From the NCBI RefSeq assembly GCF_016765655.2, contig NZ_CP086109.1:62001-126000 (forward strand): DNA of 64,000 nucleotides. The letters are read 5' to 3'. Within the stretch, counting starts at the first letter, position 1; the number at the start of each line of letters is the position of its first letter. Shown in pieces: positions 46,155-55,932 of this stretch. The notes under the pieces are model-generated. The model saw only the letters and a program-made list of their open reading frames with translations. It was not told where the DNA came from and ran no database searches. This DNA comes from Skermanella mucosa. Lineage in GTDB: Bacteria; Pseudomonadota; Alphaproteobacteria; Azospirillales; Azospirillaceae. Made by a program: the position numbers and the translations under genes.

Positions 46155-47837
46155 CTAGAGGCTCGGCAGCACCAGCTTGTGGACGCGCGCCGTCTCCAGC
46201 GCCTCCTCGTAGCCGGCGTCGGCATGGCGCATGACGCCGCTGGCGGGATCGTTCCAGAGCACCCGCTCCAGGCGGGCGGCCGCTTCCGCGGTTCCGTCGG
46301 CGACGATCACCATGCCGGCATGCTGGGAGAACCCCATGCCGACACCCCCGCCATGGTGCAGCGATACCCAGGTCGCTCCGGAGGCGGTATTGAGCAGCGC
46401 ATTGAGCAGCGGCCAGTCGGAGACCGCGTCCGACCCGTCGCGCATCGCCTCGGTCTCCCGGTTGGGCGAAGCGACCGATCCGGAATCCAGATGGTCGCGC
46501 CCGATCACGATCGGTGCCTTCAACTCGCCGCTGGCGACCATCTCGTTGAAGGCCAGACCCAGCCGGTGGCGGTCGCCCAGCCCGACCCAGCAGATCCGGG
46601 CCGGCAGCCCCTGGAAGCGGATCCGTTCGCGCGCCATGTCGAGCCAGTTGTGCAGATGGGGATTGTCGGGGATCAGTTCCTTGACCTTGGCGTCGGTCCG
46701 GAAGATGTCCTCCGGGTCGCCCGACAGGGCGGCCCAGCGGAACGGGCCGATACCCCGGCAGAACAGCGGCCGGATATAGGCGGGAACGAATCCGGGGAAG
46801 TCGAAGGCGTTGGCGACGCCCATCTCCTTTGCCATCTGCCGGATATTGTTGCCGTAGTCCAGCACCGGCACGCCCTGGCCGTGGAAATCGAGCATGGCCT
46901 TGACCTGGATGGCCATGGACCGCTTCGCGGCCGCCTCCACCGCCTTGGGATCGCGCTCGCGCTTCTCCTCCCACTCGGCAAGGCTCCAGCCGGCCGGCAG
47001 GTAGCCGTTCAGCGGGTCGTGGGCGGAGGTCTGGTCGGTGACGGCATCGGGCCGGACCCCGCGCCGCACCAGTTCCGGGAAGATTTCGGCAGCGTTGCCG
47101 AGCAGTCCGACGGAGACCGGCCTGCGGTCGCCCCTGGCGCGCTCGATGATCGCCAGCGCCTCTTCGAGGGTATCGGCCTTGCGGTCGAGATAACCGGTCT
47201 GAAGCCGCATCTCGATGCGCGAGGGCTGGCACTCCACGGCCAGTATCGAGGCGCCCGCCATGGTGGCGGCGAGCGGCTGGGCTCCTCCCATTCCGCCGAG
47301 GCCGCCGGTCAGGATCCAGCGGCCGGCGAGGTCGCCGCCATAGTGGCGCCTGCCCACTTCGACGAAAGTCTCGTAGGTGCCCTGGACGATTCCCTGGCTG
47401 CCGATATAGATCCAGGACCCGGCGGTCATCTGGCCGTACATCATCAGCCCGACCTTGTCGAGCGCGTTGAAATGATCCCAGTCGGCCCAGCGCGGCACCA
47501 GGTTGGAGTTGGCGATCAGGACGCGCGGGGCATCCCGGTGGGTGCGGAACACCCCGACCGGCTTGCCGGACTGGACCAGCAGCGTCTCGTCCTCGCCGAG
47601 GGTCTTGAGGCATTCCACGATGCGGTCGAAGGACTGCCAGTCCCGGGCGGCACGTCCGATCCCGCCATAGACGACCAGCGCTTCCGGCTTCTCGGCGACC
47701 TCCGGATCGAGGTTGTTCATCAGCATCCGCAGCGGCGCCTCGGTCAGCCAGCTCCGCGCGGTCAGCTCCGTGCCGCGCGGGCTGCGGATCTTGCGGGCAT
47801 TGTCGAGCCGGGCGCCGGAAGGAGGAACGGAAGTCAT
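46155..47837 (-). CDS. hutU: Urocanate hydratase
   Basis: 560 residues from the ATG at 47837, which overlaps the hutG stop (ATGA). Full-length urocanase with its NAD-binding and family motifs: [84 protein letters not shown], and the NAD/active-site Cys in [15 protein letters not shown]. It adds water to urocanate giving imidazolonepropionate, step two of histidine degradation. Last gene of hutI-hutG-hutU. Confidence 0.97.
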
Positions 47838-48667
47838 GGGGCTGATCCTTTCTGGCCGTTGGCGGCATCGGCGGCCCAGGCGGCAAGGCGGTGGAGCATG
47901 GGCTTCAGCACGGCGCGAAGCCGCCCGGCCCGAACCGGATCGTAGGTCCAGGGCGGCGCCTCGGCGGCGAGATAGGCACGCTGGGCCAGTTCCATCTGGA
48001 TCGCGTGGACGCCGTCCCCGGGATCTCCGTAATGGCGTGTTATCCAGCCGCCGCGGAAACGGCCGTTGACCACATGGCTGAAGCCCTCCGCCTCGGCGCA
48101 GGCCCGGGTGACGATCTCCTCCGCCTCCGGCGCGCACGAGGCGCCGCCGTTGGTCCCGATGTTGAAGACGGGCAATTCGCCGTCGAATAATCGCGGCACG
48201 ACGGAGCGGATCGAGTGGCAATCGTAGAGCACGACCCGCGGGTGACGCTGCCGCAGCCGCCGGATCTCGGCGGAGAGACCCTCGTGATAGGCGGCGTGGT
48301 AGGGGCGGCGGTCTCGGTCGATCTCCTCGGGCGACGGGGCGGCGCCAGGGCGGTAGAGGGGAATGCCGTCGAATGTCGTCGTCGGGCAAAGCTCGGTGGT
48401 CGCCTGGCCGGGATAGAGGGAGGCTCCGCCGGGATCGCGGTTCACGTCGATGACGTAGCGCGAGACGGTGGCGCGGACCACCGTGGCGTCCAGCTCCCCG
48501 CCGAAATCATACAGGCGGTCGATCCACCAGTCGGTATCCTCCAGTTCCAGCGCGCGGTCGGCAAGCCGGTCCCGCACCGCGCCGGGAATCCGCAGCCCCA
48601 CATGGGGCATGGACAGGATCAGAGGCGCGTCGCCCCGTTCGACGACGGGCAGATCTGCCGCTTCCAT
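47834..48667 (-). CDS. hutG: N-formylglutamate deformylase
   Basis: 277 residues from the ATG at 48667. Zinc amidohydrolase of the FGase family: [77 protein letters not shown]. It releases formate and glutamate from N-formylglutamate, the last step when HutF is used. The stop overlaps hutU and the start overlaps the hutI stop, so translation is coupled through all three genes. Confidence 0.94.
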
Positions 48668-49884
48668 CACCGGCCTCGCCAGACGCGGGAATGGAGGGGA
48701 TTGAAGCCGATGCGGTAGGCCAGTTCCGCCGGCCGGTCGATGTTCCAGATCGCGAGGTCGCACCACTTGCCCGGCGCGATGGTGCCGATCTCGTCGTCCC
48801 GGCCGAGCGCCCGGGCGGCGACGCGGGTGACGCCGGCCAGCGCCTCCTCCGGCGTCAGGCGGAACAGCGTGCAGGCCATGTTGAGGGTGAGCAGGATCGA
48901 CGTAAGCGGCGAGGTTCCGGGGTTCGCGTCGGTGGCGATCGCGATCGGCACGCCGGCCCGGCGGAAAAGGTCCACCGGCGGCACCCTTGTCTCCCGCAAG
49001 GTATAGAAGGCGCCGGGCAGCAGGGTGGCGACGGTCCCGGCCTCCGCCATGGCCGCGGCGTCGGCCTCGTCGGCATATTCCACGTGGTCGGCCGACAGCG
49101 CGCCGAACCGGGCGGCCAGGGCGGCTCCGTGCAGCGGGGAAAGCTGCTCGGCATGGAGCTTGACCGGCAGGCCGAGGGCGCGCGCCGCCTCGAACAGCCG
49201 TTCGACCTCGGGCGGCGAGAAGGCGATCCCTTCACAGAAGGCGTCCACAGCGTCGGCCAGCCCCTCGACCTGGACGGCTGGCAGCATCTCGCCGATGACA
49301 TGGTCCATGTAGCTGCCGCTGTCGGCGAACTCGGGCGGAGTGGCGTGGGCGCCCAGGAAGGTCGTCTCCACCCCCACGTCACGCTCCCGGCCCAGCCGGC
49401 GGGCGGCGCGGAGCTGGCGAAGCTCGGCCGACGTCTCCAGCCCGTAACCGGACTTGATCTCGACCGTGGTGACGCCTTCGGCCAGCAGGGCATCGAGCCG
49501 CGGCAGGGAAGCGCTGACCAGGGCGTCCTCGTCGGCCAGGCGCGTCGCGGTGACGGTCGACAGGATGCCGCCCCCCGCCCTCGCGATCTCCTCGTAGGTG
49601 GCTCCCTGGAGCCGCATCTCGAACTCGGCGGCCCGGTCGCCGCCATAGACCAGATGGGTGTGGCAATCGATCAGGCCCGGCGTGATCCAGCGTCCCGCGC
49701 AGTCGATGATCTCTTCGGCCTCATGGACGGCGGCGGCATCGGACGGTCCGACGAAGGCGATCCGGCCGTCCCGGCACCCGACCGCGCCGTTCTCCAGGGC
49801 GCCGTAGGGCACGGTGCCGCAGGGGTGTCCGGATGCTTCCATGGTCGCGATCCGCGCATTGGTCCAAAGGCGATCCAGCCTCAC
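48667..49884 (-). CDS. hutI: Imidazolonepropionase
   Basis: 405 residues from the GTG at 49884 (AAGGGGATGGCGC upstream); the frame is open further out but family length supports this start. Amidohydrolase metal motif [74 protein letters not shown]. Converts 4-imidazolone-5-propionate to formiminoglutamate. Divergent from hutF. Confidence 0.95.
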
Positions 49885-49929
49885 GCGCCATCCCCTTGTT
49901 CTTGCCGTGGGTGATTTTCTACGGATATT

Positions 49930-49945
49930 GTTATTTACAGTTAAC
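49930..49945. promoter_or_regulatory. AT-rich dyad in the hutI/hutF divergent promoter
   Basis: GTTATTTACAGTTAAC has GTTA/TAAC ends in inverted orientation and is the only AT-rich spot in the 133-bp divergent region. On the minus strand TTAACT-17 bp-TAGAAA could serve hutI. A HutC-type operator is conceivable but its consensus is not matched clearly. Confidence 0.3.
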
Positions 49946-50017
49946 GCCGCTCGACCACCGGTGTCCAGGATTCGCATTCCGGTCCCCCCGGGATATCTCA
50001 AGGAGCTTGTCGGAGAA

Positions 50018-51385
50018 TTGGAGCCAGTCAGGGGATTTTTCGCGGACAATGCCCTGCTCTCCCATGGCTGGAGCCGGGACGTGCTGTTCACGGTCGATGG
50101 CTCGGGAATGGTTTCGAGCATTACGGCCGATGCCGAACGCGGCGATGCCGAACGTCTCGGGGGCGTGGTGGTGCCGGGCATGGCCAACCTTCACAGCCAC
50201 GCCTTCCAGCGCGCCATGGCCGGTCTCGCCGAGCAACGCGGCGACAGCGCCGACAGTTTCTGGACATGGCGGCGCACCCTGTACGGCTTCCTCGACAGGC
50301 TGACCCCCGACGACGTGGAGGTGATCGCGGCCCTGGTCTGCTGCGAGATGCTGGAAGCCGGGTTCACCACCTTGGGCGAGTTCCACTATCTCCACCATGA
50401 TCCGGCGGGCCGGCCCTACGACGACATCGGCGAGGTGGCCGGCCGCATCGTCGCGGCCGCCGCGGCGACCGGCATCGGCCTGACCCTGCTGCCGGTCTTC
50501 TATGCCCATGGCGGGTTCGGCGGAGCGCCGCCGGCGGACGGGCAACGCCGCTTCGTCAACGACCCCGACGGCTTCGCCCGGCTGGTCGAGAGCGCCGGTC
50601 GGCATCTCGAATCTCTTCCGGGCGCCCGGATCGGCATCGCGCCCCATTCGCTGCGCGCGGCGACGGTCGGGGAGATCGAACGGATCCTGCCGCTCGCAGG
50701 CGGCGGGCCGGTCCATATCCATGTCGCCGAGCAGACGCGGGAGGTCGAGGACTGTCTTTCCTGGTGCGGACGGCGGCCCGTCGAGTACCTGCTGGACTCG
50801 CTGCCGGTCGATGGCCGTTGGTGCGCGATCCACGCGACGCACATGACCGTGGCGGAGACCGGGGCGCTGGCGCGCTCAGGGGCAGTCGCCGGCCTTTGTC
50901 CCGAGACCGAGGCCAACCTGGGAGACGGGCTGTTCGACGGGCCGCGCTATCTGGCGGAGGGCGGACGGTTCGGGATCGGCTCCGACAGCCACATCCATAT
51001 CGGCCTCGCCGAGGAGCTGCGGCTATTGGAGTATGGCCAGAGGCTGAGTTCGCGAGGCCGCAACATATTGTGCGCCCCTGGCGCCGGAACGGGTGAGTCG
51101 CTGTTCCGGGCGGCGGTATCGGGAGGCGCCCGAGCGCTCGGGCAGCCGGTTGACGGGCTCCAGGCCGGGCAGCGCGCCGATTTCGTCGTCCTGGACGAAA
51201 CCCACCCTTCCCTGTCGGGCCGGCCGGTCGAGCGGATTATCGACTCCTGGATCTTCGCAGGCGACCGATCCTGCGTGCGCGACGTCCATGTCGCTGGCCG
51301 CCGCGTCGTCGCCGACGGGCACCATGTCGCCCGCGACCGTATAAGGTCGGACTATGTGCGGGTCATGGCCGGAATCCTGGGGTAA
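50018..51385 (+). CDS. hutF: Formimidoylglutamate deiminase
   Basis: 455 residues if the TTG at 50018 is used (AAGGAG 12 bases upstream); a GTG at 49961 would add 19 residues. Family motifs: [108 protein letters not shown]. Deiminates formiminoglutamate to formylglutamate and ammonia, feeding HutG. Divergent from hutI; its 3' end overlaps the PEP-CTERM gene by 34 bp. Confidence 0.92.
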
Positions 51386-52223: not shown

Positions 52224-52805
52224 TCATCGGTCCATCCCCCGATCCGACAATCCCGCACGGTCAGGCCGGGTCCGCCTGGACCGGAATTCCTCGTCCCAGG
52301 CCCGTTTCATGCGGACGGTCTCCAGCTTCAGGCGCAGGGACTCAAGCCGGTGCAGGCGACTGCGCCGTTCCGCCAGGTCGGTCTCGATGAAGACATGGAA
52401 ATCCGCGACCTCCGGCATGCGGCGGTAGCGGAATTGTTCCCAGACGCAGCGGAACGCCTTGCGCCAGAGGTCCCTGGGCCAAGCGGAGATCACCTCCACG
52501 TCAAGTTCCAGGGCGATCTCGTCCGGCAGCGGAAAACCCCGGCGGGACGCCAGCGAAACCAGGGCCGCCATCACCTCGCCGGGATCGCCGGGCGCCAGGG
52601 CTTCGCGGGCGTGCCGGACCGCTTCCGGCAGGCAATCGATCAGGTCAGGCGGCAGCTCCGGCAGATGCGGCAACGGCTCGTCGGCCCAGGATTCGCTCCA
52701 GGCATGCAGCCGCTCGACCCGCGTTCTGTTCGGCGAGGCCGCCAAGCCGTTCCGGGACCCTGGACGGGAAATCGGAACCACGGTGCGGGCGAGGGTCGCG
52801 GTCAT
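52224..52805 (-). CDS. Replicon-associated hypothetical protein
   Basis: 193 residues; AAGGACCGACGCC before the ATG at 52805. Mostly helical and charged: ERLHAWSESWADEPLPHLPE, VEVISAWPRDLWRKAFRCVWEQFRYRRMPEVADF, then a basic helix RRSRLHRLESLRLKLETVRMK. It overlaps the end of the HTH gene by 161 bp in another frame. I do not recognise a family; its position next to the origin suggests a replication or maintenance role. A later internal start is possible. Confidence 0.55.
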   Translation of the reverse strand: MTATLARTVVPISRPGSRNGLAASPNRTRVERLHAWSESWADEPLPHLPELPPDLIDCLPEAVRHAREALAPGDPGEVMAALVSLASRRGFPLPDEIALELDVEVISAWPRDLWRKAFRCVWEQFRYRRMPEVADFHVFIETDLAERRSRLHRLESLRLKLETVRMKRAWDEEFRSRRTRPDRAGLSDRGMDR

Positions 52806-53541
52806 GGCGTCGGTCCTTGTCGGTGGAAGTTTCGATGGGAGTTTCGGTGGAAGATGGCTTCGGGCCGGAACGGGCCAGCGGCAGCGCGCCCTTGGGTTCG
52901 ATCAGCCAGCGGCGCCAGGCCGCGGACGGATCGGCATACCGGTAGCCTTTGGCTTGGCAGGAGAGAACGAAAGTCTCCGTGAAGGCGGATACGTCCAGGG
53001 CCGGAATCCTGCCGCGAGCCCAGGCGATGTCGGCCGGCGTCGGCAGCCAGCCGTCGGGTATCGTGGAGACATCAGGCGCCGCGGGTTTCCCTTCCGATTG
53101 GATCGAGCTGCGATTTTGCTCTCCCTCGTCTTGAGAGAGAGAGATGATTATTTCGTCGTGATGACTCGTGTCAGCAGGCTTTACAGCGTGGTCAGGTTCT
53201 TTCGACACCGGCTTGATCGCGTCTGCCGCCTGCCGGGCCAAGCCGTCGAGCAGCCGGTACCGACTCGCCCGCTGGCGACCCTCGATGAATTGCCGGTCGT
53301 GCAGCACCACGCCCTCGGATTCGAGTTCCGAGATGGCGGCGTGCACCCAGGCCCGTGACCTGCCGAGGTCGGTCGCGATGGTTTCCTGCCTCACCCAGAT
53401 CCATCCCGCGCGGTCCGCGTATGTGGCGAGGGCGGCGTACACTGCTTTCGCGGCAACCGAGATACCGGGCCGTCGCATGATCGATGCGGCAACAGTTCCC
53501 CAGCGGCTGCCCATGTATTGAGCGTCCATGATCCTGATCAT
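52645..53541 (-). CDS. HTH replication-associated protein (DnaT/phage O-like layout)
   Basis: 298 residues. Residues 10-80: winged HTH_36 type, SIMRRPGISVAAKAVYAALATYADRAGWIW, TIATDLGRSRAWVHAAISELESEGVVL. Residues 100-180: linker. About 185-225: SAFTETFVLSCQAKGYRYADPSAAWRRWLIEP, like the DnaT/DnaD-type domain with FRxWL in primosomal proteins. The C-terminus is low-complexity and lies in the overlap with the downstream gene. Starts at 53541 or the ATG at 53529. It diverges from the iteron region and Rep, so it is probably part of the replicon machinery. Confidence 0.6.
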   Translation of the reverse strand: MIRIMDAQYMGSRWGTVAASIMRRPGISVAAKAVYAALATYADRAGWIWVRQETIATDLGRSRAWVHAAISELESEGVVLHDRQFIEGRQRASRYRLLDGLARQAADAIKPVSKEPDHAVKPADTSHHDEIIISLSQDEGEQNRSSIQSEGKPAAPDVSTIPDGWLPTPADIAWARGRIPALDVSAFTETFVLSCQAKGYRYADPSAAWRRWLIEPKGALPLARSGPKPSSTETPIETSTDKDRRHDRDPRPHRGSDFPSRVPERLGGLAEQNAGRAAACLERILGRRAVAASAGAAA

Positions 53542-54329
53542 TTGCTAAGTTGGTGCAACCCGATAAGATCCACGCGACGGAAACCATGGATTTCCACCTG
53601 CGGGGCGGCTTGCGGGAAGCTGCCGTGACTCTGTTCTGTTCGGGAAGGCGCCTGCAGGGCAGCGCGCCTTGTTTCTAAGATCCGGACTTGTCCATCGTTC
53701 CTCCTGCCATTTTCATGCCTGCGCCGACCAGTCGGAAGGAAAGTCCGGGATCGTGGCAAGCACGATCGGCGGCGCGTTGGTGAAACAGGACGCACATGCT
53801 GGTGAAGATTGACGCACTATTGGCGTGCGCAAGGCTTTCCGCCGGATTCGCGCCTGAAGTGCGTTGAATTTCACCAACTTGACTGGCAAAGGTCGCCGCG
53901 AGTCCTGATTCGTGGAACCGCGCCGATTCTCACCAGTGCCCAGGCGTCCCGCCGCGAAGGTGCCAAGTGCGTCGATTTTCACCATCGCAGGATCCCGACT
54001 GGCCACCTTGGGGACCTGCCGGCCTGTATTGGGCGATATCATCCGCGTCGAATTTCACCGATACCCGATCCCGTCCAGCGTCCCGCGTTGGTGAGAATGC
54101 ACGCGCTTGATCCCGACTTCCGTGACGCTCCGTGTTCTATGGTGAAGGTCGGCGCGGTTGGATCGAGTCTGCGGCGGGTCGTTGGTGAAACTCCGCGCAC
54201 TTTGCCGGCCTGTCGGCGTCGACGGAGCTCCGCCCCGCCAAATGCGTCCATTTTCACCAACCCCGGGGCGATCTTCCTTGGCAGCGGCATGGGCAAAGGC
54301 AAAGATGCGGCAGTCGCAGAGGGATCAAG
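53542..54329. other. Candidate iteron-type replication origin region (oriV)
   Basis: 788 bp without a convincing gene between the HTH gene and rep. It contains ten dispersed 18-bp iterons (annotated separately) and the rep promoter. No consensus DnaA box (TTATCCACA) was found by eye. Frames crossing it on either strand contain the repeats as low-similarity peptide repeats and are taken as accidental. Confidence 0.75.
53777..54260. repeat. Ten 18-bp iterons, consensus TGCGTCGATTTTCACCAA
   Basis: Plus orientation: 53860-53877, 53919-53936, 53968-53985, 54044-54061, 54243-54260. Minus orientation (reading TTGGTGAAA...GACGCA): 53777-53794, 53799-53816, 54088-54105, 54139-54156, 54182-54199. TTCACCA or TCTCACC and the GCG/GCGT end are kept in nearly all copies, the middle varies. 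Start-to-start spacing is about 22 to 76 bp. Such repeats ahead of a rep gene are binding sites for the initiator; the dispersed, two-orientation layout is unusual. Confidence 0.88.
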
Positions 54330-55421
54330 ATGGCTCGTCATACAAATCCTGGATTGGCCTTGCAGCCGGTCGCGCAGTTCAGTCTCTTCGAGATCGAACG
54401 CGATCAGGATCCATGCACCAACCAGGTCGAGCTTTATGACCTGGCGCCCCGCTGCGTCTTCTACACGAGCGAGAAGGAACGCGTCGGCCCCTACCTGAAG
54501 ACGGTCGAGCGCAACTTCACCCATGCGGGGAAGGCCTACAAGCTGGTGCTGTATCCGGCCCGCGTCCGCCGGGCCGACGGCACCGAACTGGACGTCTACC
54601 CGAGCGAGCGCGAGCAGATCGTGGAAGAGGTCCTGCGCCGGCTGGCGTCGGAAGCCAACCGGATCTGGCTGGAGGAGGACGAACGGCAGCGCGACCGGGT
54701 GATGATGTCCTTCACCGTCAACGAGATCCGGACCGAGTTGAAGCGGGTCGGGCATTCGCTGAACGGTGACCAAGTCCGGGAGGCGCTGGAAGTGCTTCAC
54801 CGTTCGGTGATCGAGATCCGCCAGTGCGGCGTCGGCAAGGACCCGCTGCTGTCGTCGTCAGCGTTTCCCGTGATGATGATCTCCGATGCGCGGAATGCCG
54901 GGGCGAAGACCTACCTGCAGTTCAATCCCCTGGTCGCCCAGGCCATCCGGTCGCTGGAATGGCGCCGCGCCAGCTACGAGACGCTGATGCGGATCAGCGA
55001 CCCGGTGGCGCGATGGCTCTACAAGCGCCTTGCCCTCCGGATGAGATCGACCGACACAGAGATTTCCATGCGCGCCACCGCGATCGCCCAGGACAGCGGG
55101 CTGGTCAATCGCTCCCGTACCCGGGATACGCTGAAGCGCATCACGGAAGCCATGGAATCGCTGGTGGACGCCAACGTCCTGGACGGTTACGCCTGCTCCG
55201 TCGAGAAGGAAGGGCGGCGGCAGGTCGACATCATCTATGACCTGCGCCTGTCCGGTTCGATGCGCGACGAGTTGCAGAGGGCGGACCGCGCCGCCGTCGA
55301 GGCAAAGCGCACGATGAAGAGGATCGCCGGTACGGAGCAGCCCGACCGCTTCCTGCGGGTGGACGGCGACCGGCTTCAGAAGATCCGCCAGGATGAGCGG
55401 AACGCCCTGACCGCAAGCTGA
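54330..55421 (+). CDS. Plasmid/chromid replication initiator protein (Rep)
   Basis: 363 residues from the ATG at 54330 (GAGGGATCAAG upstream). Two winged-helix-like halves: YPSEREQIVEEVLRRLA, VMMSFTVNEIRTELKRVGHSLNGDQVREALEVLHRSVIEI, then YETLMRISDPVARWLYKRLALRM, ISMRATAIAQDSGLVNRSRTRDTLKRITEAMESLV and KEGRRQVDIIYDLRLS. This organisation (two WH domains with an RxxIEI-type strand) is that of iteron-binding initiators of the RepA/TrfA kind. It would bind the ten iterons upstream, open the origin, and probably regulate itself. No parAB is visible in the window. Confidence 0.8.
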   Translation: MARHTNPGLALQPVAQFSLFEIERDQDPCTNQVELYDLAPRCVFYTSEKERVGPYLKTVERNFTHAGKAYKLVLYPARVRRADGTELDVYPSEREQIVEEVLRRLASEANRIWLEEDERQRDRVMMSFTVNEIRTELKRVGHSLNGDQVREALEVLHRSVIEIRQCGVGKDPLLSSSAFPVMMISDARNAGAKTYLQFNPLVAQAIRSLEWRRASYETLMRISDPVARWLYKRLALRMRSTDTEISMRATAIAQDSGLVNRSRTRDTLKRITEAMESLVDANVLDGYACSVEKEGRRQVDIIYDLRLSGSMRDELQRADRAAVEAKRTMKRIAGTEQPDRFLRVDGDRLQKIRQDERNALTAS

Positions 55422-55932
55422 TCCGCCCCTGCCCCGACCGGCATCGCCGTGCCGGAGGATTGGGGAAAGAAGGCGCTTTACGGCATGGTGGCTGATGAAT
55501 TGGTTGTCGGCCCGACCCCGGTGCTATTGTTCCGGCCGAGACATTTGGTTCCAAGCGTTGGCCCACGGCCCAACCTACGATCGACGGTCCGCATCACCTC
55601 CGCCCCGCATTAAACCGTAGGTTGGGCCGTGGGCCAACGCATCGCAGAACATGAGGTGGGGGATCTTCCGTTCCGGCCGGAACGCTATCATGGTTAACGA
55701 GTTCGCAAGGATGCCTGCATACAACGGTATGCTGCGCATTTTTTCGTTGCGTTTCCTCCCTGGACTCGACCCCGCGCGATATCCGCTGCGGGGCAATTCT
55801 TTATAAGCTCTCCAGCAAATTGGCATATTACCTGACGATATTATGCTCTTGTGAACCATTATTCAATATTTGGACGACAAAATTGATGGTAACGGGATGT
55901 AAAATCCTGGTTAGTGATTTATGAGGTTTTAA
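55422..55932. other. Intergenic region rep / chemoreceptor
   Basis: 511 bp. It holds a long palindrome at 55555-55640 (listed separately) and, at about 55795-55930, an AT-rich stretch that is the likely promoter region of the chemoreceptor. Short open frames on the minus strand (for example 55575-55859) show no family features. Confidence 0.55.
55555..55640. repeat. 25-bp perfect inverted repeat (REP-like palindrome)
   Basis: Arms 55555-55579 and 55616-55640 are exact reverse complements over 25 bp, starting GCGTTGGCCCACGG, with a 36-base loop. The ACCTACG/CGTAGGTTGGG ends resemble a widespread proteobacterial intergenic palindrome family. It may terminate or stabilise rep mRNA, or be a mobile palindrome. 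Confidence 0.85.

Follow-up and report, generated by a model that had tools for sequence, protein, structure and literature searches.

A review describes the origins of the iteron plasmids F, R6K and RK2 as made of direct repeats together with DnaA boxes and an unwinding element (PMC4980987). The IncC iteron is given as a bipartite 19-bp sequence, yaTRTGGGNNcgcTGCACG, in a paper that counts a single DnaA box (PMC7433901). For Vibrio cholerae chromosome 2, an account of the origin reports that the initiator promoter carries a regulatory site, and describes iterons of the RctB initiator that are 11- and 12-mers with GATC, unrelated 39-mers, and a DnaA box in ori2 (PMC6090056). Here we analyze a 64,000-nucleotide stretch of Skermanella mucosa DNA (the window), bases 62001-126000 of contig C4 (307,911 bp) in an assembly of five contigs and 7.84 Mb. 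It contains a gene for a replication initiator (rep) preceded by an array of repeats, and a divergently transcribed pair, the O-like gene and ORF2, which we refer to as the cassette. We consider it likely that bases 53542-54329 are an iteron-type origin of vegetative replication (oriV) of a secondary replicon of ~308 kb, assisted by a phage-type helicase-loading cassette. This reading draws on the relationship and fold of Rep, the conserved two-way arrays, the constraint on the iterons, their co-variation with Rep, the cassette neighborhood, the missing DnaA boxes, and the GC skew of C4. A candidate iteron origin on a secondary replicon had been proposed from the letters of the window alone (the sequence-only reading), and we find it supported as probable.

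The region between the O-like gene and rep contains ten imperfect repeat copies at 53777-54260, five per strand, with start-to-start steps of 22-76 bp.

53542..54329, no strand: divergent intergenic region, probable oriV, between the O-like gene and rep; carries the array
53777..53794, minus strand: iteron 1, motif copy
53799..53816, minus strand: iteron 2, motif copy
53860..53877, plus strand: iteron 3, motif copy
53919..53936, plus strand: iteron 4, motif copy
53968..53985, plus strand: iteron 5, motif copy
54044..54061, plus strand: iteron 6, motif copy
54088..54105, minus strand: iteron 7, motif copy
54139..54156, minus strand: iteron 8, motif copy
54182..54199, minus strand: iteron 9, motif copy
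54243..54260, plus strand: iteron 10, motif copy

The sequence-only reading had described ten 18-bp copies, five in each orientation and 22-76 bp apart. Its count, orientations and spacing are all confirmed; the copies are imperfect, with 1-5 mismatches to its 18-mer and none exact, and when they are extended the unit is ~20-22 bp, roughly AAGTGCGTCGATTTTCACCA. GCG and TCACC are unchanged in 10/10 copies and are spaced about one helical turn. An 18-base search of the whole window with up to 3 mismatches gave 7 matches, all array copies, and 0 matches in 100 shuffles. A two-strand motif search at width 18 scored 137.8 (the ten copies plus one weak eleventh match) versus at most 56.8 in 10 shuffles, and the shuffles exclude the possibility that the array arose by chance. 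When a matrix made from the ten copies was run over the 307,911-bp contig, the copies scored 23.5-34.8, the next place 18.7, and the shuffle maxima were 14.5-22.3. A 2-mismatch search of the 7.84-Mb assembly returned three matches, every one inside the array.

The array adjoins the start of the initiator gene.

54330..55421, plus strand: rep, 363-aa initiator, distant relative of IncC RepA with a predicted two-winged-helix fold (tblastn, fold model)

No Pfam, NCBIfam or PHROG family matches Rep, and there is no sequence-profile match to Rep3_N. By tblastn, relatives occur in 1299 of 72,556 plasmid records; among the matches listed, identity is ~32-99% in Skermanella, Roseomonas and Azospirillum and ~28% in IncC-like enterobacterial plasmids. 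The protein, formerly left unassigned, is a distant homologue of the IncC-type RepA (28.5% identity over 80%, E 2e-30; the Aeromonas plasmid record examined is typed IncC). The AlphaFold model (predicted local distance difference test score, pLDDT, 83.3; predicted template-modeling score, pTM, 0.86; built on 28 sequences, not all relatives) has RctB domains 2-3 as its best PDB match (E 3.7e-7, template-modeling score 0.45 by query length), followed by RepE54 and R6K pi. The earlier assignment to the two-winged-helix class is thereby supported by predicted fold and not by a sequence profile. PDB profile searches for Rep, ORF2 and the O-like protein gave nothing useful. A phage origin of Rep was rejected, as a phage match was not found. 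Just downstream of rep there is a perfect 25-bp inverted repeat (window 55555-55579 / 55616-55640, 36 bp apart), which could be a terminator or a mobile palindromic element.

The two-way layout is widely conserved in relatives. An array in both orientations lies upstream of rep in 30/30 loci (this one, that of Skermanella rosea and 28 Azospirillaceae relatives), with scores of 134-239 versus shuffle maxima of 41-66 in the two-strand motif search. The same holds in 47 of 48 loci from a species-level genome collection, a set that shares genomes with the first, with 10-22 copies each and at least 2 in the rarer orientation; the repeats are thus kept at the orthologous loci of relatives that retain rep, and the loss there that the sequence-only reading had named as refuting it was not seen. 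The single miss, L067, is on a contig of a metagenome-assembled genome (73 vs 54, under the threshold). Downstream of rep, as a control, 5/48 loci exceed the same threshold, with scores of 62-82 vs 140-355 upstream. The copies are ordered as a reverse, a forward and a reverse block in 39/48 loci (one after flipping) and in 7 of the 12 clusters at 80% Rep identity. Copies within the gene are not counted in these orientation strings; that of the window array is RRFFFFRRRF, with these three blocks and a further copy adjoining rep. One Azospirillum Rep clade (e.g., L080 and L085) has an iteron copy inside the start of the rep match, 34 bases in.

Other relatives of rep have varied arrangements. 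The Aeromonas IncC plasmid has 14 copies in a single orientation downstream of repA, so the contrast with same-way iterons that was drawn earlier holds against a relative. Stutzerimonas L111 has 11 copies in a single orientation downstream of rep, Rhizobium L119 has 11 one-way copies upstream, and UR115 L120 has 14 copies one way and 2 the other. Microvirga L113 has 8 and 4 copies per orientation (1.5 kb examined) and Methylobacterium L114 has 6 and 7, and in Halomonas L110 iterons were found on neither side of rep. The layout had been suggested to be a feature of Azospirillaceae; it also occurs outside this family, in Roseomonas, Lichenicola, Methylobacterium and Microvirga.

The replicon used for comparison is plasmid pSR-3 of S. 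rosea, a closed circle of 328,999 bp that encodes a Rep 98.6% identical to this one. Relative to pSR-3, 14/200 iteron positions are changed (7%), versus 71/286 in the inner spacers (25%; Fisher p 2e-7 for iterons against inner spacers) and 41/302 in the outer spacers (14%), and all core positions of the iterons are unchanged (80/80). The ratio of nonsynonymous to synonymous substitution rates (Ka/Ks) is 0.02 for rep, 0.32 for the O-like gene and 0.15 for ORF2, and all three genes look to be under purifying selection.

Across 48 of 49 loci (L067, without a significant motif and without ORF2, was left out), distances among iteron matrices correlate with Rep distance (Spearman 0.88, Mantel p 0.002) better than with O-like distance (0.61) or ORF2 distance (0.77). 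The partial correlation is 0.81 for Rep given O-like and 0.12 for O-like given Rep; it is 0.71 for Rep given ORF2 and 0.30 for ORF2 given Rep. With 12 cluster representatives, the partial correlations are 0.53 (Rep given O-like) and 0.05 (O-like given Rep). Where a species has two loci, e.g., L066 and L092 of A. picis, each locus has its own iteron consensus, as expected for coexisting replicons. These sequence comparisons strongly suggest that Rep binds the iterons.

On the other side of the array is a conserved divergent gene pair at 52224-53541, which the sequence-only reading overlooked.

52645..53541, minus strand: O-like gene, 298-aa protein with an HTH_36 winged helix, similar to phage proteins of replication initiation (Pfam, PHROG)
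52224..52805, minus strand: ORF2, overlaps the O-like gene; 193-aa protein, mainly helical, that may be a helicase loader (position, weak similarity)

The O-like protein matches Pfam HTH_36 (E 1.9e-7) and PHROG replication initiation (best E 7.9e-13), and its PHROG matches are mainly replication proteins, mainly over the N-terminal part. The model of ORF2 is mainly helical (pLDDT 79.5, pTM 0.71, alignment of 22 sequences). Relatives of ORF2 match PHROG 9804, of unknown function in PHROG (best E 6e-7), and weakly phrog_2289, annotated as helicase loader (best E 0.022); ORF2 of the window itself matched neither. A search of the ORF2 model against PDB gave no match, and the top matches in a viral fold search were unnamed or uncharacterized proteins. 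A loader role for ORF2 is a guess from its position and this weak similarity.

Homologues of the O-like gene flank rep in 48/48 relatives and those of ORF2 in 47/48, with the one miss on a cut contig. In the family's 82 genomes, 77 of 80 Rep places have a divergent O-like gene no more than 2.5 kb away, with a median gap of 831 bp; the 80 places exclude three N-terminal fragment rows of genes already counted, and the O-like side of the count uses the strongest rows among the matches listed (E 3.4e-74 or better). The three misses are an O-like gene at 2,561 bp, a partial Rep copy, and a case on an 813,369-bp contig with the two genes at opposite ends (rep at the start, the O-like gene 825 bp before the end). 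The O-like family seems narrow: matches at E 1e-10 occur in 5/152 genomes across the class, two of them from this family, in a survey that scored at most 16 candidates per genome. By tblastn, it is found in 51 plasmid records, all from Azospirillum, Roseomonas, Skermanella or Lichenicola, and a search with the window O-like protein and one Azospirillum ORF2 matched no phage record.

The cassette also occurs beside other initiator families in this genome. In searches that scored 30/146 and 37/133 first-look candidates, the O-like model matched at least three places, on C2, C3 and C4, with ORF2 following each; there was no match on the 6.4-Mb C1 among those listed (E up to 1e-6).

G000:C3:24340-25089 (in L191): pair location on C3, beside an RPA initiator
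G000:C2:504216-505040 (in L192): pair location on C2, beside a Rep_3 initiator

On C3 the pair is downstream of an RPA-family initiator gene (PF10134, E 2.2e-54) on the same strand, and the RPA rep is preceded by two-way repeats (5 and 3). On C2 the pair is divergent from a Rep_3 initiator gene (PF01051, E 4.1e-10), with repeats between them (5 and 6 at width 16). The pairing recurs with "replication initiator protein A" on S. rosea pSR-1 and A. brasilense p4 (where ORF2 was not detected) and with another initiator on Azospirillum TSA2s p1, in each case with two-way repeats. The cassette is not tied to the IncC-RepA-like Rep. Two further places are of note. An O-like gene with an ORF2 neighbor at G012:C7:24071-24874, on a contig where a Rep of this family was not found, may mark another initiator type. 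Besides two O-like/ORF2 pairs, G011:C3 496695-530134 contains three Rep copies (one nearly complete, two partial), possibly a replicon fusion.

We searched the upstream regions of 49 loci for DnaA boxes with the consensus TTWTNCACA. There were 0 exact sites (0.6 expected) and 15 sites with up to one mismatch (14.9 expected), and the window region (~850-860 bp) has no site of that consensus at up to one mismatch. In the IncC control there are 4 exact boxes (0.1 expected) and a stretch of 80% AT. In the window region the best 50-bp AT content is 56%, near the start of the O-like gene, with no strongly AT-rich stretch, and a scan for sigma-70 promoters found none. The data fit a DnaA-poor origin.

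Contig C4 is the counterpart of pSR-3: 74% of it aligns to the pSR-3 stretches compared, at a mean identity of 92%. No exact terminal overlap of C4 was found, so we infer that it is circular from the circular pSR-3. No other annotated replication initiator is present in the pSR-3 stretches covered (all but 100001-106507 and 322901-328999, hypothetical proteins not searched), and pSR-3 parA/parB are ~21 kb from rep. A repABC replicon was considered and rejected, as there is no repA-repB-repC operon beside this rep; none is annotated in the pSR-3 stretches covered. C4 has a chromosome-like base composition (GC 0.6719 vs a mean of 0.6723 in six 20-kb chromosome samples, range 0.632-0.693). It has no tRNA gene, the one core-gene type searched for, and the earlier suggestion of a chromid-type replicon stays a suggestion. 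Genes for histidine utilization (hut) are near rep at window 46155-51385 (names from pSR-3), and on a plasmid of Azospirillum oryzae (L117 8961-15155) such genes likewise adjoin rep.

A GC-skew change near the locus, proposed as a check with the original suggestion, is present on C4. The contig-wide cumulative minimum is at 108,611 (window ~46.6 kb), 8.0 kb (2.6% of the replicon) from the center of the array-plus-rep segment. There is also a local skew reversal on C4 of this genome (G000) at ~126000-150000, with a second near-minimum at ~150 kb, perhaps a segment recently inverted or acquired.

We infer origin activity, Rep binding and the roles of the two orientations as follows. Rep would bind the ten 20-22-bp iterons by means of two winged helices, one for each half-site (GCG and TCACC), the half-sites being a helical turn apart. 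The initiation complex may form on the copies of one orientation, and the opposite-orientation copies closer to rep probably act in autoregulation and in the pairing of origins (handcuffing), a role suggested by the position of this rep-proximal block and by RctB and iteron-plasmid biology (PMC6090056, PMC4980987). The phage-type cassette may then help recruit the helicase DnaB to the origin once it is open; at classical iteron plasmids DnaA participates in this recruitment. Of all these steps, loading of the helicase by the cassette is the least certain.

Several observations weigh against an origin of this kind. The loci counted are related and not independent, forming 12 Rep clusters at 80% identity. 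Outer spacers changed less (13.6%) than inner spacers. The box search would miss diverged boxes or boxes outside ~860 bp, and the cassette-less L111 (Stutzerimonas) and L119 (Rhizobium) also have 0 exact boxes (0.1 and 0.0 expected), so loss of DnaA boxes is not tied to the cassette and was rejected as its mark. ORF2 has no PDB match, and its helicase-loader similarity is weak and confined to relatives. Two-way iterons occur without a detected cassette in Methylobacterium L114 and Microvirga L113. A strict linkage of two-way layout and cassette was rejected on these two loci (in the flanks examined), together with the 11 one-way copies of L119 and the 14 and 2 of L120. The skew minimum is near the locus on 2/4 replicons with this Rep: on the three replicons other than C4 it is 8.4 kb (2.1%), 9.7 kb (11.7%; G046:C8, with weak skew) and 128 kb (19.9%; G028:C4) away. 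Skew was dropped as general support for the origin.

The alternative that survives best, which we nonetheless consider unlikely, is an ordinary DnaA-dependent iteron plasmid origin at which the O-like gene and ORF2 regulate copy number or transcription, or are accessory genes travelling along. HTH_36 is a general DNA-binding domain and relatives show weaker MarR-like matches, ORF2 is without a proven loader match, and seven relatives of rep (L109, L110, L111, L113, L114, L119 and L120) are without a cassette in the flanks examined. With two cassette-less relatives also lacking exact DnaA boxes, box absence alone proves nothing. This alternative has to be set against PHROG matches of the O-like protein that are mainly to replication proteins, a cassette found beside three Rep families in one genome, and the 0 consensus DnaA boxes in 49 regions.

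It is improbable that the repeats are instead binding sites of the O-like protein, in the style of lambda O, with Rep secondary. Lambda O binds iterons of similar size at the lambda origin, and an O-like gene flanks the array in 48/48 main-group members, but the iterons track Rep and not the O-like protein. In Methylobacterium L114 and IncC L109, rep is accompanied by iterons but the flanks examined contain no O-like gene, and the repeats beside the RPA and Rep_3 initiators of this genome differ though both loci carry O-like genes. Just as implausible is a partition site (centromere) or Rep-titration site in place of the origin itself: some centromeres have scattered repeats in both orientations and the cassettes of Azospirillum oryzae and Roseomonas mucosa have par genes beside them, but pSR-3 parAB is ~21 kb off while the array stays beside rep in 47/48 relatives, and the iterons co-vary with Rep.

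An iteron oriV with a phage-type cassette may be part of something wider. We propose, tentatively and with more doubt than confidence, a common modular origin plan that bypasses DnaA for the secondary replicons found in Azospirillaceae and in some Acetobacteraceae. In this plan initiators from three or more families (IncC-RepA-like, RPA and Rep_3 among them) are interchangeable and read two-way arrays, a single conserved cassette of phage descent (O-like/ORF2) loads DnaB with each, and opposed iterons pair in cis via Rep. If so, cis pairing of opposed iterons would give each replicon a built-in off switch. With a shared cassette beside otherwise different Reps, several replicons in a cell would have the same loading step, possibly one independent of DnaA. 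Large secondary replicons are maintained in Azospirillum and Skermanella, and in one recent survey 59.4% of Azospirillum DNA is on extrachromosomal replicons (PMC13342612). We found no description of this origin type, or of how these replicons start replication, in the open-access literature (subscription papers not covered); the arrangement suggests a little-studied way of starting replication. The O-like gene and ORF2 can serve as markers for such origins where Pfam, NCBIfam and PHROGs recognize no Rep, as at this locus.

The F (RepE), R6K (pi) and RK2 (TrfA) plasmids are like this locus in having a two-winged-helix initiator (RepE and pi are matched by the Rep model) and iterons. Unlike in those plasmids, the window iterons run both ways, and neither a DnaA box nor an unwinding element was found. 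As for Rep_3-superfamily theta origins generally, the locus has a winged-helix initiator (by predicted fold) and repeats adjoining rep, and not the DnaA box and AT-rich element.

Closer is the RepA replicon of IncC (IncA/C), with a related Rep and multiple copies of a bipartite iteron, re-found in this analysis as atATaTGGG.acgcTGCACG. In the one IncC plasmid examined, the 14 same-way iterons are downstream of repA, whereas the window iterons are upstream and in both orientations; that plasmid has 4 exact TTWTNCACA boxes and the 80% AT stretch, and the window region has neither. There is no O-like or ORF2 gene in the 4.9 kb of the IncC plasmid examined. Membership in the IncC replicon group was rejected, as there is RepA homology without the same-orientation downstream 19-bp iterons.

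The V. cholerae chromosome 2 origin is likewise a secondary-replicon origin of iteron type, and domains 2-3 of its RctB are the best PDB fold match of Rep. It differs in that the window array is of one 20-22-mer class with no consensus DnaA box. The GATC-bearing 11- and 12-mers of RctB-type chromids are absent, with no GATC in the ten copies (39-mers were not searched for).

The O/P module of phage lambda resembles the cassette in that the gene for a winged-helix O-like protein precedes a small partner gene, which often overlaps it. Unlike that module, the cassette described here has a partner that is a candidate loader by weak similarity, and it adjoins a plasmid Rep with iterons of its own.

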